In this document: positions 4,224-64,000 of the stretch, in pieces
How the letters are laid out: each line of letters opens with the position of its first letter
Position numbering within the stretch: position 1 is the stretch's first letter
DNA from: Datnioides undecimradiatus
Taxonomy: Eukaryota > Chordata > Actinopteri > Lobotiformes > Datnioididae
Direction of reading: 5' to 3'
Assembly: GCA_008933995.1 (NCBI GenBank)
Contig: WARS01000008.1
Span: 16,416,148-16,480,147 of the forward strand
Length of the DNA stretch: 64,000 nt
Notes under the pieces: model-generated
Told to the model about the DNA's origin: nothing
Databases searched by the model: none
What the model saw: the letters and a program-made list of their open reading frames with translations, nothing else
Position numbers and translations under genes: made by a program

Positions 4224-4735
4224 AGCACGCAGAGATCTGTAAATGTGCAGACAAATCTGTAAATGCATACATAGATCTGTAGATGTGTAGACAAATCTGC
4301 AAATGCATGTGAAAACCTCCCAGTGCATGTGGAGATCTGTAAATGTGTAGACATGTCTATAAATGCATTCGGAGATCTGCAAATGTGTGGGGAGATCTGT
4401 AAATGTGTAGACAAAGTGCATACACAGATGGGCAAATGCGTGTGGAGATCTGTATATGTGTAGACAAATCTGCAAATGCATGTGGAAACCTCCAAATGCA
4501 TGTGGAGATCTACAAATGTGTAGACATGCCTATAAATTCATTTGGAGATCTGCACATGTGTGTTGAGATCTGTAAATGTGTAGACAAATCTGTAAATGCA
4601 TGCATAGATCTGTAAATGTGTGAAAGAATCTGTAAATCCGTACACAGATACTAATGGATGAAAAGTTTTGCAGATGCATATGCATTTGCAGACCTCCACG
4701 CACATTTACAGATCGGTCTACACATTTGTTCATAC
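4224..4735. repeat. Minisatellite, ~20-bp units with a 173-bp higher-order period
   Basis: About 500 bp of imperfect tandem units of 18-22 bp, alternating variants of AGATCTGTAAATGTGTAG and ACAAATCTGCAAATGCATGT. A higher-order period is visible. Landmarks at 4273, 4311 and 4331 recur at 4446, 4484 and 4504, each exactly 173 bp later, so a multi-unit block was duplicated with no net length change. The stop-poor frames across it encode repeats such as THLQI and TDLCMHLQI; I consider these artefacts. It lies within a TYW1 intron. Confidence 0.9.
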
Positions 4736-18463: not shown

Positions 18464-20462
18464 TGCAGACATTTGTACAGACAAAGACTGAAACTTGGTA
18501 AGAGACGTCGAAAGTGAGTAATACGACTCTGACTGATGTAGATTCAGCCTGTTTGCACCAAAGGGATGTGGGAGCACAGTGAAACTAAGAATCCAGAATA
18601 ACACACTTCACTTCAGTGTAACATCAGAGACTCTGCTGCAGCGCCGAGCCTCACTGTATAAGGTCGCCGGCTCGCACTCTTCCAGGTAGATCTTAATAAC
18701 CTTTTCTCTCGGGTAGTTTTGTGGTTTGCACGTGAACACGTTCGCTGCAGGAAAGCGGTGTGATCACCCACAGCACCCAAACACCCTTGCATCTAACTGC
18801 TCTCATGCATCTAAGCCATCGAAACTGAACCCAAAGACCAAGCTGAAGCAGGAGCAGAGACGCTGCTGCGATGCACCCGAAACAACCCCGTTCTTCTGTT
18901 ATTATACGCTAAAAAAAAAAAAAAAAGTGTGTGCACAGCTCAGATTTGGCTAATTACTGCCCTGAAATCTTAATTACTCCCCTGATCTGCTCTCCCTCTG
19001 TGCTGCTCTGCTCTCTCTCCCACGTTTCTCACTCCAGGTTTAGGAAACACTAAAAAGCCGAACGGCTCTGACATGAATATAACCTCTGCAGATCAGCTGC
19101 ATCTGCCACCACATGTCTCGTCTCCGCAACATGTTGGGATGAGCTCTGCCAACGAGACACAGGGGTCAGCCAGGTTTAATTGCTTTGGTCCACAGCAGCA
19201 GCTTGATGGTGAAAAGCAATAAACAGCAAACTACACAACATTTTGACCCAGACAGTTCCTCGGGGGCTGAATCCTATGAGTCCGTTTGAGTCTATTTTAA
19301 AACCCGGCAACAAAGAGTAATGATTAATCCGATCGCTGATGCCGGTCCTGCATTGGAGAGCACTTGATTGGAGCCAGATTCCTTCAGTTCGTCCCCCCGC
19401 GGCTCCTTCACACCTTTCTGCTCTCAGTCCGGCTCATCAATAGTTCGTCTCTGCCGCGGGGAGCTGTTGTTCTCCCCCCGGCGCCTCTCCCTCCTCATCG
19501 CTTGTAACCACAGCGCAAATTTGCCACTATTGATCAGAGAACGCTCAGCGATCCGCTGCTGTTTTGATTGATTTTAGCGGCCGAGGCCAGATGGTCTCAC
19601 ACTTCCCACTCCATTTCTCTCGCCGGCTGAATGGGAAATTATATGTCAGCGCCCGAGTTTCACTGGTGATAATCAGTAGTTGTTGCCGTTTGTGTGTGTG
19701 TGTATGTGGAGCCTTTTTTATCAATCACAGTCTCCAGACTACCAAAATATTTATTATTTATCTTTAATTTCATTAATTTATCTTAAAAGCATCGGTTAAT
19801 CTGATTTAATGACGTTAATTAGCACACTCTTGCACCTAAGCTGTCAACCTTTTACGCCCCATGATGCTGCAGGACATGCAAATGCCTCGTTTCTGTCCCC
19901 TTTAGTTATTTAGAGTAGGTTGCATCAGATCGCAGTCTTGCACCGGAGAGGAAGAAGCTGCGTGAACTGCAAACGCCACGATTTAATACGCCGACGGCAG
20001 AACATGCATCTGCGCCGCGATGATATCAGAGAGACGTTTGCTGGATAGACGGCTCGCTAAGTGAGGTGTCGCTTTCCCGGAGCTGCAGAAGGGAGAAGAG
20101 ATTCTCTTCAGCAAGAGAGTCAGTCACTTGTCAGATCTGGAGATTTCACAGAGCTTAGACCGATGCTCTGTCAAACAGTTTATTGCTTCAAATCCAGAGC
20201 AATGATCAGATCAGGCGTGTTGATCGCTTGTGATATTGACCGGACACTGGAAACTGAGCCCTTCGTCTTGATACTGAATATCCAAAGAAGCCTTCAGTTC
20301 TTCAAAGTGTTTTTGTGAAAACCAAACGTCAGCCAGTGCGTCAGCCTCAAAAATCCGGTTCGGGTCCCGTCATTTACCCTTGTTGTAACACGATTTAATG
20401 AAATGTAAAGCCCGCTTCTTTCCTGGGCTTCGTCTCTGACCGTGCGCTTGCGTGCTTTGCAG

Positions 20463-20630
20463 GGAGTGACGTACTGCGGGGAAAGCTCTGCCAGCAGCCT
20501 GACCATGGCCAACGTCCCCTGGCACCAGGAAGTGGTCGCCTTCGTCCAGCAGCTGGCCGACATGTTGCCGCAGTACGAGATCGCCTGCGAGCACGAGCAC
20601 TCCAACTGTTTGCTCATCGCACACACCAAG
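20463..20630 (+). CDS. tyw1: TYW1 exon D: end of barrel into wyosine-formation domain
   Basis: A 168-bp exon of 56 whole codons, phase 0 at both ends. It reads GVTYCGESSASSLTMANVPW, then an amphipathic stretch (VVAFVQQLADMLPQYEIAC), and ends EHEHSNCLLIAHTK. This matches the conserved GVTYCGxSxxSxLTMxxVPWH signature of TYW1/Taw1, which closes the radical-SAM domain and leads into the C-terminal wyosine-base-formation domain. Acceptor AG is at 20461-20462; donor GTAAGC is at 20631. The two minus-strand frames here (20294-20629 and 20370-20624) are shadows of this exon. Confidence 0.96.
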
Positions 20631-23063
20631 GTAAGCGCTCGGCCTCAGAGGGTCAGGGTCATATTCCTCAGCATTAACAATCAGTTTATTGAGCTGACAG
20701 ATGTTTTCTGGTCCACATTCTGCATCAGCAGCAAACGAACGTCAAACGCTGGGCTAATAAAGACTCGACCCACCATCAAAGTTAGCTTAGATGCTAGTTT
20801 TATGGTGGCTTTTACAATTTGGGTGCGTAACAGGCAGAGTTTGATCAATAACAAGTAGAGATTTAATCAGTAGATGTTTCAAATATCAAATTAGAATAAT
20901 CTGATGGTTTGTGAGACTCCTTGTTTCTGCACAAAGGCAGTAAAGCATTTGCTGCCGTGCTGCACCTTGGCTTCGATGCTCAGGTTGCAGCTTAACGACG
21001 CTGGAAGGTCCTGCGTTGCGTCCGCTGCTGCAGAGCAAACGCCACCGCGACGTCTCAAACCATCCCGGCTAGCTCCCAGCTACGAGCCGGGCTAAGCCAG
21101 TCTAAGGAAACAAGCACGTTCACAACTACGGTTCAGGGACATCAGGAGACGCTTGTGACATTAACAACGCACGGTCACCCTCCCTCTGTCTGCAAAAGTT
21201 AGAACACAAACTATAAACTCTTAATTTGGCGATGCATACATCTTCATCTGCCGTGTGTCTATTAGCAGCCGTTTCCTGGCCGCCGCTGTGTTTTCTTGCA
21301 TATTAGCATTTGGAAGTTATCATCATTATCAGCGGACCCAGACAGAGGATACTGCCCTTCACACATTATAATGAGTAATGTGCACCTGGTGATCCCCTTT
21401 GAATGTGTTGTGATCGTGCGGCAGCTCGTCTCAGCTCGACACGACCGCGCGCCTCCTTTATCTCCATTTTCCTCCGGAGCAGCTTTCGCCAGACAGCCGC
21501 GAAACCCACCGCAGGTTTTTAACATTTCCTTTTAGTCTCGTTTTATTATTTATATAATTCAGCCTGCCGTCTGCCCTCCGCTCCAAACGCGAAGCTGCGA
21601 ACGAGCGGTTTACTCTGGCTCGCCCGCCCCAGTAAGTATCAGTCTGTGGCGGGTTCTGCCAAGGCGACTGTCCGTCAATAATTAATGAATGATTAATTGC
21701 CGTCTTGGCTCCCCGTGTCAGAATAGAAATTCACGCCAGCCAGCTCTGCACCCACACCTCCCTGTCACACACACATAAACGTTGTGCTTGATGTGTTATC
21801 ACAGTTTATTTAAGCACCCAAACTCCTAATCCTCCTTCGCTTTTATTTACCGGAGCTTTGTTTTCATGGGCCCGCGTGCAGATTTGTTTACCTCTGCGGT
21901 GTCTGCAGGGAGCGCAGCAGAGAGACGCTCGTTGTTTATTCTGCCAGTTATGCACCGCGCGTTGAAGTGCTCGCTCCGTATTTCAGGTCGCTTACGTGAG
22001 AAACGCAACAAAAAAGCAGCGAAGTGGTTTCCAGCTTAAGATTCAGTTCAAACGGGACGTCGGGAAGCTGCAGGTGTGACACAAAGGTGAAGCTGCTGAC
22101 TCATCTGGCTTCGATCGACGTAACAAACGACTAAAATCGCGACAACAAAACGACAGATTTTACCGTTTAATGTTAATAAAATGGATGTTCTGCCGTTTGG
22201 AGCAATGACTGGCTGATTTATCTTCGTTTCCTGCCTGAAAATGTAGAAAGTGGAGATGTGCGGTTGCACGAAATGGAACAAACCATGTCCCACGAGTCAA
22301 ACAGTTGTGATGCACGACTTGTGATTTGAATGCACGCTTGGTTTGAACCTGCTTCCTGCAGAAAGCAGTTTGTGTGTAGACGCCAGACCTGAGCTTGCTC
22401 TGAGTGTTTGTCCCGTCAGTGCATGAAAGCATATGGGTGCTGACTCAGTGGGTGAACCCAGAAGCCCCTAAAGGACCCCCGAGGGCTCCCAGACCGCACT
22501 TTGTCCACTCTTGATGTAAGAAAACGCAATCAAGGACGGCTGTGGTTGTGGTTTACACAGTTACACCCGTGTTATAAATGTGAACAGAGGTCATCATCAC
22601 GTGACGACACGTTCGCACACACCTGAGGCGAAAACAAAAGGTGCTAAAAAGCCGTTTGTTCGCTCGGCTCCTTCCTTTTCTTTCACACCAGCGATCGATA
22701 CCTCGCTGAATCGATTTCCACCTTCCACCGCCAACCTGCCCTTCCTCTCCCGGCACCGACGCAGACACATTCGCATTCATTTGCACCTCCTCGCCTGCAA
22801 CTGTCGGCGTCTTCTTAACGTACACACTCACGCGCGCGCGTCGCTCTGCATCTCTTTCCGCTTCCCTTCCTGCTCCCAGTCACGCAGGCTGCAGCGCCGG
22901 AGCCCGACGCTGTGAAGCGGCATCTATCAGCCTGTTAAGTAAAAGCTCGGGCTGAGGCGCCGTGAGAGGACTGAACAACGCTTTGCACTCGCTGCGACCG
23001 TCGAGGCTCTGTGAGCATCTGCAGAGGCTTTTCCAGGAAACACCAGAGCAGAGCAGCCTGGTT

Positions 23064-25536: not shown

Positions 25537-25758
25537 TTCAAGATAGGCGGCGAGTGGTGGACGTGGATCGACTACGAGCGCTTCCAGGAGCTGGTCCGCG
25601 CCCACGAGGAGAGCGGGGGCCGGCGGAGCTTCTCAGCGTTGGACTACATCGCCAAGACCCCCAGCTGGGCTCTGTTCGGAGCCCGCGAGCAGGGCTTCGA
25701 CCCGGCCGACACGCGTTTCCAGCGGCGCAACAAAACCAAAGACGTTTCAGGATGCTGA
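25537..25758 (+). CDS. tyw1: TYW1 terminal exon E: wyosine-formation domain and stop
   Basis: The last coding exon has 73 codons plus TGA at 25756-25758. It starts FKIGGEWWTWIDYERFQEL, continues through FSALDYIAKTPSWALFGA and GFDPADTRFQRRNKTK, and ends in SGC. This is the C-terminal wyosine-base-formation domain of TYW1. The WWTWIDY, TPxWALFGA and GFDPxDTRxxRxNK blocks are family hallmarks, and the final SGC also ends human TYW1 as I recall it. The basic RRNK patch near the end may contact tRNA (inference). Acceptor AG is at 25535-25536, phase 0. With exons A-D this gives about 270 uninterrupted residues with no frameshift, so the gene looks intact here. The plus frame at 25449-25892 and the minus frame at 25538-25888 are shadows. 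Confidence 0.96.
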   Translation, partial: FKIGGEWWTWIDYERFQELVRAHEESGGRRSFSALDYIAKTPSWALFGAREQGFDPADTRFQRRNKTKDVSGC

Positions 25759-31476: not shown

Positions 31477-33116
31477 CGTCATCTGCTCGTGGAGTGCGTC
31501 CCTCAGAACTGCAACTGACTCAAAAGTGACATCCGGCCCCGGCGCGTTGAGCCGCCGCATCGTTTTCTGCCTCCTCTGTGCGAGACAGGTGCTGTGGGGA
31601 ATGACCTTGATTAGCTCGTATGCTAATCCCCTCTTTAAACAAAGTGACTCAATTAAGCAAATGACCGTCTAACGAAGGCGCCGCCTCGCATATTGATGCT
31701 TTATTTTTGAAGGAGGAGGATTTGCATCCTAATGGCGTAATGAATTCTCGCTTGACAACCGACTGGTGGTAAATCACAGAGCGACGCGATGAATCATAGA
31801 AAATCTGTCTGAATAATGAGCTGAGATGCTTTCTGGGTGCGGGGCGATTAGGAGAGATATGTGCTAATTGCCTGCTGTGTGTCCTGGATGAATCTCTTTC
31901 CTCGGGCTCAGCTGTCAAATGGTCTGTTTCACAACTCTGGGAGTAAAAAGGGGAGCGGTCCGGGCAAAAGTTTAGCAATTAAAAGATCAAACCCTTCACT
32001 GTCTCTGGTAACCAATCTGATTACGAGCCACGCACCACCGATGTTGACCCTTGCTGCACTGAGCGCCTGCTGTAGCAGTGTTTAGGTGCTGGTTCAGTAA
32101 CACCTTCAACTGCAGCTCAGAAACTGAAACTCTGTAAATGGATGCAGAGAAAACAAGTCGTCTGACGGCGCTGTCTCTGGTTCTTACTAGTTTTACTAAC
32201 AGCAAATGTTGCATTCGGGTAATAATTCGATTTTGCGACAACCGTTGCGTGCGTGTGCAGGAACAACCCAGACAAACAAAACGAGAGCAAACAAATTAAA
32301 GCCATAATCCGATATTTGCACAGTTAATCTGCATCAAAAACCAGCTGCAGTCTGCCAAATGTGTCGCCGCCCTCCCGACCAAGCGTATGCGCAGAGGCGA
32401 GGCAATCGTCTTGGGTTGTTGCTTCCTGTTTTGCTGCTAAATGTGAATACGTTTGACATGTCCATGTTTTAAAATGGGACTATCATCAATTCTGGTTCCC
32501 AGTTCCTCTGCAGATAGAAAGGATGTGAAAGGATGTGCATATACTATACTAATATAAAGATCTCAAGAGGAGCCGCTCCGCTCTGTCTCCTCGCTGGTTC
32601 AGATCTGAGGGCGTCACCGTCCCGCAGAGAGAAGCGTGTGCGTGCGCATGCAGTGAGAGAGATCATCGGTGAGCATCAGGTGAAGCGTATTCCCCTGCAA
32701 CATGTGTGTCCCGCGGTCGGCTGCGCGCCGTTGAGCCCCGGAGAGCCTGATTGATGAATGAACCGCGGGCGGGTTGGCCGGCGAGGCGCCAAGGCCGGGG
32801 TGTGCGCTGAATCACGCGGGGCTGGTTATTATCCATCACGCACACGGACTGAGATAAAGACCTGCGACGCGCGGATCGACTCTAACAGAGATGCTTTGAT
32901 TGACCCTGGAACTGAAAAGCTGCTGATGCCACTTGTGTGTGACGCAGGTTGTGTAACGCACAGGTGTGTGATGCTCTCTGCACTTTGTTCTGCCGCACAT
33001 CAGCGATCAAAGCCGTTTTCCTGGGCAGTCGCGAGGAAATAAACTGAAAGACACCTAAACTTCACATTTCCAGCCCCCTCCTCCCCCCAGGATCCATTAT
33101 TATATCATACATTCAA

Positions 33117-33310
33117 TTAACCTATAATAATAATAATGATCTTAATGTATACAGCCTTTTTAAAGGTCCAGGTCACAAAGTGCTTCACACAGGGAGCGAA
33201 TTAAGGACGACGAGCCATAAAATCAAAGGTTTAAATGAGTAAAACTGAAAATAATAAGAAGAGAAAAACATTTGGACTGAGGTGAAAGACAAAGACGATT
33301 AAAACAAGTA
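33117..33310 (+). repeat. Dispersed repeat copy 2 (CAAAGTGCTTCACA family)
   Basis: A second, diverged copy of the element at 27181-27330, preceded by an AATAATAATAATGAT stretch. Shared blocks in order are the CAAAGTGCTTCACA word, an AGCG/GGACGA-like block, GTTTAAATG, AAGAGAAAAAC and TTGG. Orientation is the same as copy 1. It is probably a non-autonomous element or truncated retroelement tail; the family is not identified. Confidence 0.55.
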
Positions 33311-34082
33311 CATTTAAATGACGATAGCTGACTCGGTCGACCTGAATGTGCCAAAATTAAAACTGCATATTTGTGTTTTTAATGAAAAGGACGACTCGAC
33401 TATTTAAAGACGCGCATCACGCTGAAACAGGATTGTTGAGGAAGCTGAAACGCTAACGTGACCAGCGTAACTCTGATAAGCTCTCAAACTGGCAGCTTTA
33501 ATTAGTCTGTACGCCACAGCGGCTTAATAGAAATCATTAATCTGAATTATGATCCTTGAGGGCGATGGCACACATCATGTTTAGCCACATTTAGCTCACC
33601 GTGTCGCTTATAAAGCCGTTTGACTGTACGCTTCAGTACCATCGTCCCCATTAGCCCGGTACCTAGCAGTCAGAACTACTGTGATTGCAAATGAGTGCTT
33701 GCATTAGCGGCGTAGCAGCGTGGCATTTACACGCCACGCAACTGTATCCAGCAGCTGCGCAGATGTGGTCTTGCTAGCTGTCGCTGTTGTCAGTTAAAGC
33801 TGAGAGCTGCATCAAAACCAAAAACAACATGACGGCGTATTCGCTGCCGCGGCTGACCAGGAAGTGATTCACTGCAATTTGACGTAAGTGAAGAGGTAAA
33901 AATGTGCATCGGGTCGACTGCGTGATGTCGCTGCATGCAGTGTTATGTCTCGTTGCATCAGAAGCGGCACTGTTACGCAACACGAAGCGGCCCCCGTGGT
34001 ATACGTGTTGCACGATGCACAATGTGCACATTACGATCACCCGTGCACTCATTAACCTTTTCCCTCGGCTCGGCTAAAACAG

Positions 34083-34530
34083 GACGAGCTCCGCGTTTGT
34101 CTGCGGCATCATCGCAGCAGAAAAGAAAAAAACATGTAACATCATAAGACCCCTCCTCACGTGCAGGACAAAGCCTGATCCAGGTGTGTTTCTGACATGG
34201 GAAGGTAGTTTGATCCATGCAATCACTCAGAAAAGCTAATATCCACATCCAGCATCTGCACTTTTATCAATTAGTTTGTTTTCTGCTTCATATCAGAGAC
34301 ACGCAGTGATGAATATGTGTGTATTATATGCAAATACTCTCTGGCTACCATGCAAATCTGCAAACGGCAAACATTTGTTAGTCTGCAAACAGGCATTAGT
34401 CAGGACCGGGACATTTGTTTAAGTCTGGTATGAACAAAGTGTTAGCATAATGAACCCGGCTGCAGATTCACCTGCATGCCTTACTTTGTTTCTTTCGGGA
34501 TCGATGAGTTGCACGTTTCCTGCGTCTGTG
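34083..34530. repeat. Duplicated segment, copy 1, with near-identical core
   Basis: Pairs with 36004-36430 as a direct duplication. The core at 34234-34429 aligns without gaps to 36181-36376 and differs at three of 196 positions, all transitions. The flanks are recognisably related but diverged and gapped: a shared GACGAGCT block on the left, and a shared CTTTGTTTCTTTC block on the right, which in this copy is separated from the core by 54 extra bases (34430-34483). Two perfect octamer motifs ATGCAAAT lie at 34328-34335 and 34350-34357. No open frame is conserved between the copies. Confidence 0.95.
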
Positions 34531-36003
34531 CCGTTTGTGTTGCAGTGATGGCGACAGCTTTGTCAGAGTAATCGCGTGCGTGCAGGGTTTGTAGATGGCC
34601 GTCTCCCAACACTTTGCAGGTCTTTTCTCCGCACGTGAGAGTCATCGACGCGCAGATGCCCCACATTTGGTTGCCGTCCTGTGAAACTGTGCGTACTTCA
34701 TGCGCCACGTCTGCAAGCGGCGAGCTTGGCAGAAACACCGCCAGGCCAAATATAGGAGCCGAACGGATCCTGGGCGCGACCGCCCGCTGTGATGACAGTA
34801 AAGGAAACGTCGATTCTGAGGTTTCCATCCCAGCACCCTCTGATATGTCTCAGCTCGGGCCGAAGTTGCCGACATTTCCTGCAGAACGTGCTCAGTGCTT
34901 TTGCAACGTGTTGAGAGGCTGCGGCCAGTCTGCAGACGGGGGCGATGCAACATAGGATGAAGGTCATCGTGCAGGATAAAAGCCACTTCCCCGGTGACCC
35001 CTCGGGCTCCAGACAAACCCGTGCGTGGGGACGTTTGTGTTGCGGTTACAGCATTTGTGCCGGCAGGTGGACGTCACAGTGTGTCGCTGGACTTTTGCCG
35101 ACTCAGCCCAAAATCTGCAGGAACCGTCACGCGGTGCAGAGCAGCAGATGACGAGTCTGTCAGTTGCCTCCACACGGGAGTTACTTGTGCTCTTCCACGC
35201 TTACTCTGCTTCTCCTGAACTCACCTGCAGAGCTCCGTCACTGCGCGGCGGCTGATCGCGCGTAGAAATATAACATGCAATACAAATTCAGAGTTTAGTT
35301 CAGATAACAAACTAAAGGAAGCATGCGTCTCATCCCAAGTCATCCCTTGTCATTTCATTTGTTTCGTTCGGGTCAGAACACACCTGTACCTCTCTGTCTG
35401 CGCAGCTGAGCCCCCACGTTTGTCCTGCTGCTCTTCGGTCTGATCACAAAATCACAAATACTGTCATAACGACTGATTTCGGTGGCTCTGCATCCCCGGA
35501 CCTACTTCTGTTGGTTTTCCAGCAGATGATAGAGGAAAGAAAGACGTGAAACTGTAAAGCTGCAGAAACACTGCTGCAGAAAAATTGAAAATATTCTGGG
35601 CTGAAGTTGAGAAGAACTTTCTTTTTTATGTCTTATGTCTTTTTGTTTTTTTGGCTGTGGGCTATCGAGCAGGAGCAGGAGCAGCAAGACTGATGCTTGA
35701 CTGCCTGAGGAGACCTTTCCCTCTCTGAAGCTGCTGCAGAGCTGGTTACGTCTCATCTGCCGGCTCTGAGAGTTAAACAAGGGGAAGGTGGTTTTGTAGC
35801 TGGAAAGCAATTTTTCTACCGTCCACCAAAATCATCATCGTCTGAATCTCACCATCTGTGTCTGAGGGATAGCAGAAGCAGCTCCTGGAGGTTTTTCAAA
35901 GTTTGGTTTTAAATCGAGGACGATATCACGTCGTGTTTCGTTTTGAGGAACGCACGATCGTCGCATCCGGCAGAGCATGAAGTCCTCAGCTCATCTAAAA
36001 CGT

Positions 36004-36430
36004 GACGAGCTCTGTGTTTGTTCTGCTGTTCGGACTGGCGACAGAGTCACCTCAAACTAGAAAACAAAAGCTTGAAAACACAGATTAATGTCATTAGATC
36101 CTTCCTGACGTGCAGAACAAAGCCTGATCCAGGTGTGGGAACATACCAACATTCATTCGATCAATGCAATCAGTGAAAAAAGCTAATATCCACATCCAGC
36201 ATCTGCACTTTTATCAATTAGTTTGTTTTCTGCTTCATATCAGAGACATGCAGTGATGAATATGTGTGTATTACATGCAAATACTCTCTGGCTACCATGC
36301 AAATCTGCAAACAGCAAACATTTGTTAGTCTGCAAACAGGCATTAGTCAGGACCGGGACATTTGTTTAAGTCTGGTCTTTGTTTCTTTCAGGATCCTTTA
36401 GTTGTGTGTTACGTGTGTGTGCTGAGTGCA
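36004..36430. repeat. Duplicated segment, copy 2, with near-identical core
   Basis: Partner of 34083-34530, about 1.95 kb downstream in the same orientation. The core is 36181-36376. Octamer motifs ATGCAAAT lie at 36275-36282 and 36297-36304, the same 22-bp start-to-start spacing as in copy 1. The right flank CTTTGTTTCTTTC follows the core directly here. Confidence 0.95.
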
Positions 36431-37774
36431 CAACACAAATATATACCAGGGTATACACAATTATATATATTTTGTTAGAGAATCCTCAAATTTCCCAAAC
36501 TCTGAAATGCTAATTGTGCACCGTCCCAGCGAGAGACGCAGCGAAAGTGCTCCTGCAGCCCTGCAAACATCGAAATAGACGCAGTCCCCAAATGTGATGT
36601 ACGAGTTACGTAACGTTGACGTGTTTGCTTTGGAAAACAACGAAACCCTGGGATAGAACACAATAAACATTACCATGCTGCGTGTTCTCCGCCGCAGATC
36701 ACGTGATCGGCCTTTCATCGTCACATTTACAGGAAAGCTGCTCCTGCCTGGGTGTAAAACATGACCGTAATCCGATTAAAAACATGAATTTATCGTTTTG
36801 AAATATTCAGAATAACCCGTTTTTACTGCAGCGGGCCTCGTCCACGTGAAACCAGGTACCACGGCAGCTGGTATTAAACCCAATCATGCATTTCATTTAA
36901 TAGCAGATTGATCGCCATTTGCCATTTGATCGCCTGGTATCACCCGACTCTGGGAGCTGCGCCCTCCGTGTGACGGGTGCTGCATCATAGATGAAGTTTA
37001 CCATCATCCTCCTTCTTCTTATTCCCATTTACATTTCATTCACATTACAAAAGCGGGCGATTCAGAGGCGCCAGTTAGCGGAGCCCGTCTTTGGACTGTG
37101 GGAGGAAACTGACAGTGAGCACTCGAAACTACCCATAGGTGTGAATCTTTGTGCGAATGTGCAGAACTGTCTGTGTGCGTGATGGATCAGCGGCTTGTCG
37201 TAGGTGTTGCCTGCCATTTGCCAATGCATGCTGGGAAAGGCTTTAGCCTTTATGACCTTGAATGGGAATAAACAGAAAATATCCAGGCTGGCGGAGCGCG
37301 TTTTGTTGATCAACAGGGCCAAAACTAATCATAATGTGGGTTTTATGCTCGCTTTATTGAAAATTTGAATTTCTGATTCACTTAAACTGCTAAACTTCCC
37401 TTTGCAGGCGGGGACGTTGCACACGTTCCCTTACACAAACACCGTAGCGTGCACGTTGTAGCCGTCAGACTTTCAGAGAATATGCATGTCACAGCCAGGA
37501 TCACAGCTTTGACAATGCTCACTCGGTGTTCGCTGTGTTTGCATGCATCACACAGGCGCTGGTTCAGTTTTAAAATGAGGATCCCTCTGTTTGTCTCCCG
37601 CAAAGACGCTCGGCAGTCGGAGGCTTCGCCGTCCTCAGCAGCTGTGTCAGGACTTCAAACGCATCACGGCAAATCCAGAACAGACGTATTGACTCATTAG
37701 ATTCCCTTCTGCAAGAAAGTTAGATGAAGCCACAGCAGAGACAGAGACACTGTGACTCATTCCACCAAGAACAC

Positions 37775-37794
37775 GCACACACACACACACACAC
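37775..37794. repeat. CA microsatellite
   Basis: Short CA run in intergenic DNA, inside a longer CA-rich stretch that reaches about 37850. Confidence 0.9.
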
Positions 37795-40700
37795 GCATGC
37801 ACACAGCTCAGACATGCAGTCACACTCACACGTGCGCATACACACAGCTCATGGTGATGAGCTTTCCAAGGCCGAATTGGTGAAAGAACTGAGCACAGAT
37901 TGGATATGTGATATGTGTGTGCGTGTGCGTGCGTGCATGAAAGGAAGAGATCAGAATAGCTCGCAGTGTTCCCTGCAAGAGGTGCATGCTGAACCCAAAC
38001 CCGATGAAACTGCTAACACTGCAGATTAAGTTCTCGCTCTTAATTGCCGTTGTAAGGATTCACCAAGTTCCCATGTTTACTCACTGCATCCTACATTTGT
38101 TGTTATTTATTATTAATTATTATTATTAGGAAACAGTCTGCAGAACCAGCAGAACCCTGGTTCTTTAGGCTCCAGTGAATGAATGTGTCTGTGGCTCTGC
38201 CTCTGGGTAAACAGCTCTCTGCAACGTTGGCATCACGGTGCATTTGAACTGCAAACTGTACATTAGCTGAACAGAAGCCACACTCCAAAGTTTCATGTCG
38301 CTCCCACTGAAAACGTCTCCGTATGCACTTATAATAGCACGAGGGTCACGTGAGCGAATCAGTCTGTATGTAAATAACAGGCCTGAGTGATTGGACCCTA
38401 CAATCAGGAGCTTTTCCTGCTGTAGCTCTGATTACAGCAGGACAGCGCACTGTAAAAAATGTTTTTTTAAAAAAATAAAACGTTTGTTTACAGTGGACCA
38501 AACACAAACACAGACTGCAGCCCAATCCAACAGATTCAGGGCGTCAGGTCAGGTTGGAACGGCAATGGGTCTTGACGTTGACCAATGAGAGCAAAGAGTG
38601 CTCCTCCGTGCACAGCTGAGGGGACGACGCTGCTGTGAGGTTGGACTGTGCAACAGAGGGAAGGCTTCTCCGAACCGGAGGCGACCAGGAGCGCACGGAC
38701 AGTCCCACGTTGCTGCTCCCGGAGGTCGGTCCCTGGCACCTCCTTCCTGGTGACACCGTGCAAACACGACGACTGAAGTTAGTCGCGGCAAGACTTTCCG
38801 ACTTAGTAACCACCTAATCTGGCGCAGATATGAGGTTCGTAGTCTGAACTGTTTGCAGGTTTCATTTGTGCAAGTCTGTCATTTTGCTGTTTTCTATGTT
38901 CGCAGCGTGGCGTGTCTGCAAACCTTCGATCACAGCTCGGGGAACAGCTACCCCACACCGTGAGCCAGCGTTTCGCGGCTCAGTGGGCTTTGTGTCGTCT
39001 CAATGAGAGGCATTTAGTGCTTATTGGAGAAAACTGGTGCTGGGTGCGCTGGTATGTCCGCTGCGTTTGAGGCTACACAATGACCGAAAAGGTCACAAAT
39101 GCGTATGTATGTATCCGCGCCCGAGACGTCTGACTCCTACATGCTGACTCACGCTGGTCGAGAGCCCTCTGAATGCCTTTAAATGTGAAAAATAATTGCT
39201 GTAACCATGACATGATGTTTTCGGCATGGCCTTTTTTGTCCTCTGGCATTCCTAGTGGGCACATTAACCCCCGAATCTAGATTAGTGCCATTAAACGTAC
39301 AATACCCTGTTAGACATGGGCATTCATTTGATTCAGCTGACAGGAATGGGAATAAAGAAAGAGAGTAGGTGTGCAGAAAGTGCTCCGCCGTCAGCCTCGT
39401 AGCCTTCAGGAGAAATCAGCCACCCCGGCTTCAGCTGAAAAGCAGCTCCACTCGTTCGTCTTTGCTTTATTTGAACGGGGATCGTCTCCGGGACTTGTTG
39501 GTTTGCCGAATTCTGCTCACGCCCTGGCTTCCTTCCTGCGTGTGAACGCCCAGTAACGACTTGATTTGGCGATTTGCAGATTAAAAGATGTTTGGGTAGG
39601 AGCAAACACTTGTCCGGTCCGGGGACAGAGCGTCTAGACCTCTTAAAATCACAGTCGGCCACGTTGACCAGACAAGACTCAGCACTGGCTCCAGAGTCAA
39701 CCTCAACTCAAACTCGTCTTGTGCACGAGATGAGACTGTTGCACACGTAGTCACTTCATCTTTATGCATCTCATCTGATGCAACATCTACAGTTGGTTGC
39801 AAACAGGGAGGGGCTTTACTGAAACACCTGAAATCACATTTGAGCTGAAGGGCAGGAGTGGCAGTTTGACATCTGGGCCAAAACACAATGCAACCTTTGT
39901 CACAGCCGAGCCGTGCAAAGTTCATATACTTCACAAGTGACAGACAGCTCGGCCAGCTCCCGGCCAGCTCCCGGCCAAACGTCTCTGCTCTGTGGCTCGG
40001 CAACGCTTTGCCTGCATGAATGTGTCATCGGACAGTCGTCATAGTCCCTTTTCAACCACATTCCTCCCAGTTTTGATCTGCAAATCAACAACTCTGTGCT
40101 CACTGGCTCATCAAAAGCTTCTTTCCTCTTCTTATTCAGGTCAGGTTGAGGAGAGCGACAGAGCAACAGCTTGTTCCCAATTAACTTCCTCTGCTTCTCC
40201 TCCGTGCGGCATCGCCGGGCGCTCTCAGACTTCTTTGCAGAGTCCTGGGTTTGTAGCAACGCACAGGAGCCAAAACCACATTAATGCGTAAGTGCACAGC
40301 CAACCTGAGGAGCTCGGTGACCTTGTGTCCTTCACCGGGTGACTTTTCATTTGACGGGAGCAGGCTCTCTTTATCGTGAGAGAAACACTGACCTGCAGTC
40401 TGTCAGAGCGAACCCCCTTTGATTTATTCAGTCTTTCATCACAGAGTCTGCGGCTGGTCCCACTCATCACTCTTGTGTCTGGCTTCGCTGTTGACATCAG
40501 TCGGCGCAAAGTGCTCCGAACTGGGACACGCGTCACTGGAAGAGGACTCGTCTGTGCGTCCTCAGCTGGAATGAAGTGACATTCGCCTTATATTTCACAC
40601 AAAAATATAAGTTTCATGCAAATTTAGCATGTTTTTCTCTTCTCTACGCCCACAAACAGGCGTATTTTTGCGACTGGAACCCGGATTTTAAATGAAAATG

Positions 40701-43048: not shown

Positions 43049-43225
43049 ATGAGAGTGAGCTGTCGTACCTGCTGCTCTCACTGCTCAAATATTAACAACG
43101 GGTTTCTGGGAACCGATGCCGCTGCTCTGGGACAAGCCCAAACTGTGGAGGCAGCCGGGCTCAGTGGTTTGTGGACAGGCAGTCTGCCGCTGCTGCTGGA
43201 GGCACCGCTGCATCTAAGAGGCTGA
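43049..43225 (+). other. Upstream ORF overlapping the long CALN1 start (TGATG)
   Basis: A 58-codon frame starts at an ATG with A at -3 (43049) and ends in TGA at 43223-43225. The last A of its stop is the first base of the ATG that opens the long calneuron isoform, giving TGATG. A second, 33-codon upstream ORF (43116-43217) ends seven bases before the same ATG. The peptides resemble nothing known to me. If both lie in the mRNA leader, translation of the long isoform would need leaky scanning or reinitiation. Inclusion in a transcript is not shown. Confidence 0.4.
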
Positions 43226-43427
43226 TGGAGGAGGAGGTCACAGAGCCCGATCCTCAGACAGTGGAGCCCGCCGGCATGCCTCCGCCGGGGACGCACTCTG
43301 AGGTGAACGGAGACCTGCCGGGCAACCCGTACCTGAGAGACGGGGCGGTGGACGTGATGGAGAGTCCGGCGAGGGAGCCTGTTGTGCTGCAGGATCCTGC
43401 CGAGTACAGTCAAAGCGATGAGTATGG
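43225..43427 (+). CDS. caln1: CALN1 alternative N-terminal exon (long isoform)
   Basis: The open frame starts at ATG 43225, the first ATG in this frame after an in-frame TAA at 43093-43095. It reads MEEEVTEPDPQTVEPAG, then PPPGTHSEVNGDLPGNPYL, and ends QSDEY plus two bases of a glycine codon, with donor GTAAGA at 43428. Splicing to the acceptor at 51827 completes GGG and continues GEK-MPFHHV, adding 70 residues before the canonical methionine. Human CALN1 also has a longer form in which an upstream exon reads into WEK-MPFHH, so the same junction supports this model. The extension is acidic, rich in Glu, Asp and Pro, with no predicted domain or signal peptide, and is probably disordered. Its sequence bears little likeness to the human extension as I recall it. 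Phase agreement across an 8.4-kb intron is the main evidence. Confidence 0.7.
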
Positions 43428-51826: not shown

Positions 51827-51948
51827 GGAGAAGATGCCGTTCCACCATGTGACGGCAGGCCTGCTCTACAAGGGGAACTACCTGAGCCGCTCGCTGTCGG
51901 ACAGCGACAGCGACGTGCTGGCCAGCATCTCTGTGGAGGAGCTTGACG
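51827..51948 (+). CDS. caln1: CALN1 exon with canonical start (MPFHHV)
   Basis: This exon carries the start of the short calneuron 1 at ATG 51834-51836 and encodes MPFHHVTAGLLYKGNYLSRS, an acidic SDSDSD run, and SISVEELD. It matches human CALN1 closely through KGNYL and again at ISVEELD, and differs from CABP7 (calneuron 2), which starts MPFHPVT. Acceptor AG is at 51825-51826. The seven bases before the ATG (codons for G-E-K when read from the upstream exon) are coding in the long isoform and leader in the short one. Donor GTAAGG is at 51949, phase 1. Calneurons are Golgi- and membrane-anchored EF-hand sensors that restrain PI4-kinase III beta at resting calcium. The small extension at 51949-51965 to an in-frame TAA is intron read-through. 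Confidence 0.95.
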
Positions 51949-59778: not shown

Positions 59779-59922
59779 AGATCCGGGAGGCGTTCAAGGT
59801 GCTGGATCGTGACGGAAACGGGTTCATTTCCAAACAGGAGCTGGGTATGGCCATGCGCTCGCTGGGTTACATGCCCAGCGAAGTGGAGCTGGCCATCATC
59901 ATGCAGAGACTAGACATGGACG
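59779..59922 (+). CDS. caln1: CALN1 exon: EF-hand 1 and start of EF-hand 2
   Basis: A 144-bp exon in which the first two bases complete the Glu codon split at 51948. It encodes EIREAFKVLDRDGNGFISKQ, then MAMRSLGYMPSEVELAIIMQ and RLDMDG. EF-hand loop 1 is DRDGNGFISKQE (residues 48-59 of the short form), with all calcium ligands in place: D at 1, 3 and N at 5, S at 9 and E at 12. The second loop starts at the LDMDG end and is split by the intron within its first glycine codon, as in related calcium-sensor genes. Acceptor AG is at 59777-59778; donor GTGAGT is at 59923. The sequence is almost the same as human CALN1 as I recall it. The neighbouring open frames (59435-59812 and 59725-59913) are shadows. 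Confidence 0.97.
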
Positions 59923-63893: not shown

Positions 63894-64000
63894 GTGACGG
63901 GCAGGTCGATTTCAACGAGTTCATGACGATCCTCGGGCCCAAACTCCTGTCGTCTGAAACGAGAGAAGGCTTCCTGGGCAGCACAATAGACACCATCTTC
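63894..64000 (+). CDS. caln1: CALN1 exon: rest of EF-hand 2 (runs off the window)
   Basis: The first two bases complete the glycine codon split at 59922. The exon then reads DGQVDFNEFMTILGPKLLSS and ETREGFLGSTIDTIF to the last base of the window. EF-hand loop 2 (residues 84-95 of the short form) is DMDGDGQVDFNE. It keeps D at positions 1, 3, 5 and 9 and E at 12, and has N at position 11 where human CALN1 has D; that position is not a direct ligand. The exon has no stop and probably ends shortly beyond the window. The degenerate EF-hands 3-4 region and the C-terminal transmembrane anchor are not visible; about 122 of roughly 219 residues of the short form are in view. Confidence 0.95.

Follow-up and report, generated by a model that had tools for sequence, protein, structure and literature searches.

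Why do two stretches of about 200 bp, lying close together in the same fish genome, remain almost identical when the sequence on either side of them has diverged? We examined this in a window of Datnioides undecimradiatus DNA (the whole stretch analysed, 64,000 nucleotides), in which both copies of the block are present, about 2 kb apart according to their alignment. An earlier note on this DNA had offered two readings, a duplicated enhancer or a repeat family with a conserved core. With modest confidence, we favour the reading that a noncoding element of roughly 450 bp was duplicated locally long ago, that its core would be an enhancer and that selection would keep both copies.

Extent of the duplicated block

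The features discussed are collected in Table 1. Measured from start to start, the copies lie 1921 apart in the outer part of the left flank (34063/35984), 1947 apart at the core and 1893 apart on the right (34484/36377). The first step recovers the change of about 26 bases that had been described for the left flank. The second, together with the alignment, confirms the 54 extra bases of copy 1.

Table 1. Features of the window, with the evidence on which each rests
Feature	Position	Strand	Basis
Block copy 1	34063..34528	+	Detectable extent; homology blocks 34063-34100, 34137-34188, 34209-34429, 34484-34528 against copy 2
Block copy 2	35984..36421	+	Detectable extent; homology blocks 35984-36021, 36086-36137, 36156-36376, 36377-36421 against copy 1
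Near-identical core, copy 1	34234..34429	+	193/196 identical to copy 2
Near-identical core, copy 2	36181..36376	+	193/196 identical to copy 1
54 bases only in copy 1	34430..34483	+	Alignment; either gained by copy 1 or lost from copy 2
Conserved island outside core, copy 1	34157..34181	+	23/25 columns identical to copy 2
Two ATGCAAAT octamers, copy 1	34328..34357	+	Exact matches at 34328 and 34350, starts 22 bp apart
Two ATGCAAAT octamers, copy 2	36275..36304	+	Exact matches at 36275 and 36297, starts 22 bp apart
tyw1 exon	20409-20858	same as caln1	Pfam PF08608, E 1.7e-19
Candidate (alternative) first coding exon of caln1	43225..43427	+	ATG at 43225, donor GTAAGA after 43427; starts MEEEVTEPDPQTVEP
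caln1 exon beginning EKMPFHHVTAGLLYKGNYL	51827..51948	+	Translation; the C493 paralogue stretch matches it at 75% (DNA, E 3.9e-16)
caln1 EF-hand exon	59779..59922	+	Pfam EF-hand on the surrounding reading frame; has paralogues
Next caln1 exon, cut off by the window end	63894..64000	+	Translation GDGQVDFNEF...

Outside the block, the rest of the 1.9-kb units (34512-35983 against 36405-38500) shows no significant similarity, with a score of 1633 that falls within the range of 40 shuffles (mean 1423, maximum 1706). A 1.9-kb tandem unit is rejected for this reason, and the duplicated unit looks like the block of about 450 bp, unless the remainder has diverged past recognition.

Two further places carry weak resemblances. 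Positions 35412-35455 resemble the left flank of copy 2, without the core; none of 500 shuffles reaches the score (fitted p 0.00056, uncorrected, six comparisons), and this place is possibly the relic of a third copy. Positions 31529-31634 resemble the core, with ATGCTAAT in place of the first octamer, at a score reached by 1 of 200 shuffles (fitted p 0.005, likewise uncorrected over six comparisons). Weak as they are, the two could be relics of further copies.

Core identity and flank divergence

The cores align without gaps and differ at three of 196 positions, 34302/36249 (C/T), 34327/36274 (T/C) and 34366/36313 (G/A), all of them transitions, exactly as had been read from the letters. In two of the three, a CpG of copy 1 stands as TpG or CpA in copy 2. 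The best segment (34231-34496 on copy 1) is identical in 209 of 212 columns; outside it the figure is 140 of 202 ungapped columns, with indels. Splitting the alignment into two rates gains 39.6 units of log-likelihood, against a maximum of 8.6 over 200 permutations. Uniform divergence is thereby ruled out, which upholds the non-uniform profile noted earlier. In terms of Kimura-corrected distance, the flanks stand at approximately 0.40 substitutions per site (computed from 33 transitions and 29 transversions) and the segment at approximately 0.014, a ratio of about 28.

Conservation in the flanks is patchy. Besides the island listed in Table 1, the left flank holds a perfect run of 21 bp (permutation p 0.016, weak and post hoc), and the alignment of the copies has 13 perfect columns past the 54-base indel.

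Noncoding nature and composition

All six frames of both cores hold a stop, and a coding exon in the core is rejected on that ground. Searches of the window found no Rfam family and no tRNA gene (ARAGORN, bacterial code setting). The predicted RNA fold of the cores is not unusual when compared to shuffles, with z of -0.21 and -1.24; a known structured RNA is rejected from these values and the empty Rfam result.

As for composition, the core is 61% A+T, its GC being 39% against 50% in flank 1, and 12% of the 196-bp windows off the core between 26 and 42 kb are equally GC-poor. A passage of PMC1852409 quotes Fugu conserved noncoding elements (CNEs) at 59% A+T.

Copy number in the genome

A DNA search of the core against its own 581 Mb assembly returned two matches, with identities of 100% and 98%, and the window contains both. 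The earlier note had proposed this search as a test of the repeat reading, for which it expected hundreds of hits. Since the DNA search skips very common words, more weight rests on a pattern search: 27 bases across the second octamer, allowing up to 3 mismatches, occur genome-wide at the same two places, and their reversed control nowhere. The plasmid, genome and viral collections gave no match to the window DNA, as expected for fish DNA.

Neighbouring genes

The block is located between tyw1 (upstream) and caln1 (downstream, + strand). The reading frame ending at 25758, where Pfam gave no hit, is presumably the C terminus of TYW1. The block copies begin 8.5 and 10.4 kb past this likely stop, and end 8.8 and 6.8 kb ahead of the candidate first coding exon of caln1 at 43225. 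In translation, rather than from transcripts, the candidate exon joins in frame to the next exon at EKMPFHHV; the 40 kb lying upstream of the nearest paralogue, at locus C493, yielded no homologue of the candidate.

When joined, the calneuron exons give a match to calcium-binding protein 7 (2lv7_A, E 2.5e-40), which identifies the downstream gene as a calneuron. Its assignment to caln1, the neighbour that had been named, is supported. A 49-residue EF-hand piece has 18 matches in the genome, four of them at 88-100% identity: C463 (which holds the window), C493, C328 and C65. By analogy, these four loci would be two caln1-type and two cabp7-type teleost genes, as a passage of PMC3547026 has it for zebrafish. 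That source, in its account of expression, places zebrafish caln1 in sensory neurons (probable Rohon-Beard), pallium, thalamus and retinal ganglion cells.

Octamers and other motifs

The paired octamers, 22 bp apart in each core, are indeed present as exact matches at all four positions. The core also contains four ATTA, three ACAAA on the opposite strand and three GCAAAC. We take the octamer to be a POU site, ACAAA to be SOX-like and ATTA homeodomain-like. A mix of POU octamer, SOX and homeodomain-type sites is typical of many nervous-system enhancers.

The octamer is common well beyond the core. The window holds 15 occurrences of it, against 3.88 expected from dinucleotide shuffles, and the enrichment covers its whole length, the tyw1 side included. 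The same contig supplied 20 control stretches, with a GC of 41% against about 48% in the window and one of them partly masked; there the density is 2.9 per 64 kb (9 in 199,804 bases), making the word about 5 times as frequent in the window. Of the 840 words that share its composition, it is the 2nd most frequent in the window, the 346th in the controls and the 7th in the 40-kb C493 stretch.

Genome-wide, 357 places carry a same-strand octamer pair with a 0-30 gap, a list that includes tandem arrays and repeated contig pieces, against approximately 18 expected from the control density. The reversed-word control gave 10, and is too strict because that word contains CpG. Among the first 100 pairs listed, the gap is 14 in 5 and at most 16 in 80. 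Given these numbers, clustering of octamer pairs is a general trait of this genome and a gap of 14 does not stand out, and the idea that a pair at this spacing is a rarity is rejected. The octamer pair alone does not single out the core, with octamers enriched window-wide and pairs at 357 places.

A duplicated enhancer as the favoured reading

The earlier interpretation is supported in part: its duplicated-enhancer reading survives as a proposal, but the octamer pair, on which it leaned, is not distinguishing on its own. We propose distal enhancer of caln1 as the most likely role of the core, which measures about 200 bp. Its two same-strand POU octamers, separated by 22 bp or about two helical turns, would work alongside the nearby SOX-like (ACAAA), homeodomain-like (ATTA) and GCAAAC sites. 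In neurons that express caln1, POU and SOX factors may bind the core jointly, reach the caln1 promoter and activate the gene. Both copies would be used, additively or with partial redundancy, and for that reason both would be retained; with both in use, purifying selection would hold the core while the flanks drift. In the caln1 literature on conserved noncoding DNA and on zebrafish enhancers, a keyword search found no report of the duplicated element.

Weighing the alternatives

A dispersed repeat or transposable element with a conserved core would have related flanks around both copies, as is seen here, and could leave nearby traces such as the flank-like and core-like places at 35412-35455 and 31529-31634 (uncorrected for six comparisons). 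It is nevertheless rejected as a family: since the DNA search and the 27-base pattern both put the core at only two sites of the 581 Mb, it is not a dispersed repeat, and the repeat-family reading of the earlier note falls with it. A tRNA-like part is absent, and none of the seven inverted repeats listed in 33000-38000 brackets a copy in the manner of terminal repeats. A tRNA-derived SINE is rejected on the ARAGORN result, which a degenerate head could escape. Overall, we regard a repeat origin as very improbable. Somewhat less remote, though still improbable, is a constrained element that does something else, whether as an insulator or structural site, as a short exon or RNA of this locus that has escaped annotation, or in the regulation of tyw1. 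Its position is compatible with this, as the block lies between tyw1 (stop near 25758) and caln1, closer to both than to other recognised features. On the other hand, the stops in every frame of both cores, the absence of an Rfam match and the unremarkable fold values speak against an exon or RNA, and the motif content would suit a tissue-specific enhancer more than a housekeeping gene such as tyw1.

Gene conversion is the main rival of constraint, unlikely in our judgement but to be taken seriously. Here the duplication would be old and the central 200 bp of one copy recently overwritten from the other, leaving a young core between flanks that show the true age. The sharp step from 140/202 to 209/212 fits this, as does the identical stretch of about 200 bp, the usual length of gene conversion tracts. 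The core edge coincides exactly with the 54-base indel, and heterology often halts such tracts. CpG-type transitions, which account for two of the three core differences, are the most frequent neutral change in young sequence, and so they fit unconstrained sequence after recent conversion too. Also counted against an ancient element is the result at C493, where the 40 kb upstream of the paralogue hold nothing recognisably related to the core (best hit 52 bp at 71%, E 0.034); that stretch stops short of the gene's first exon, which is possibly further out, and C493 was the one related locus whose upstream DNA was compared. Against conversion stands the patchy conservation of the flanks. A single recent tract over the core would not by itself produce conserved islands outside it, and the 23 of 25 columns at 34157-34181, the 21-bp run and the 13 columns past the indel are counted for constraint. 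Moreover, GC-biased conversion would be expected to raise GC, and the core is GC-poorer than flank 1, although GC this low is no rarity in the surrounding DNA. Within this single genome, then, the signs weakly favour constraint, which we rank ahead of conversion; it is plausible that both act together. One stronger form of the enhancer reading, which we hold to be doubtful, is a near-ultraconserved neuronal enhancer of caln1 that was duplicated locally and has hardly changed in either copy; selection may have combined with recurrent conversion to this effect, as concerted evolution of an enhancer pair.

Comparison with known element classes

Like vertebrate CNE enhancers, the caln1 core is noncoding and about 200 bp long, has a neuronal gene as neighbour and shows an apparently sharp edge between conserved and diverged sequence. 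Its 61% A+T is close to the Fugu figure, in a region where 12% of windows away from the cores are as GC-poor. Unlike them, its conservation is known between two copies in one genome, and the gene next to it encodes a calcium sensor instead of a transcription factor or signalling protein. Locally duplicated or redundant ('shadow') enhancers are similar modules near one gene. The two similar modules here, known from sequence, have that arrangement, and the block resembles both CNEs and locally duplicated enhancers.

Duplicated CNEs (dCNEs) also consist of two related noncoding copies, each apparently retained as here. According to passages of PMC1896008 and PMC2781166, however, dCNE copies sit near paralogous genes and many date to early whole-genome duplications. 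The caln1 cores lie 2 kb apart at one gene, with no others genome-wide or in the 40 kb upstream of the C493 paralogue. As dCNEs are defined in print, the block does not qualify, its copies not being near different paralogous genes.

Ultraconserved elements are defined as stretches of 200 bp or more without any difference among human, mouse and rat. The core shares with them a length of about 200 bp and an almost unchanged sequence, but theirs is identity between mammals and the identity here is of copy against copy. A passage of PMC4207606 reports such elements to be depleted from segmental duplications, unlike the caln1 core, which is duplicated; if near-ultraconserved, a duplicated core would therefore be unusual.

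Implications

If the favoured reading is true, an enhancer pair has been frozen in both copies while the flanks diverged by about 31%. A single locus would then offer a way of asking which of selection on each copy, dosage and conversion brings about the freezing. A duplicated near-ultraconserved enhancer, if that is what the core is, would contrast with the depletion from duplications reported in the same passage of PMC4207606. If instead the core is young or converted, the locus becomes an ordinary local duplication.

Other repeats

Local direct repeats were also seen in 1 of the 20 control stretches of the same contig, a stretch that has masked letters. The 40 kb at C493 gave no comparable local direct repeat. 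Lastly, a degenerate tandem array with periods of 20, 60 and 173 bp lies at 4233-4637 of the window and is rich in AAATGCAT-like words.
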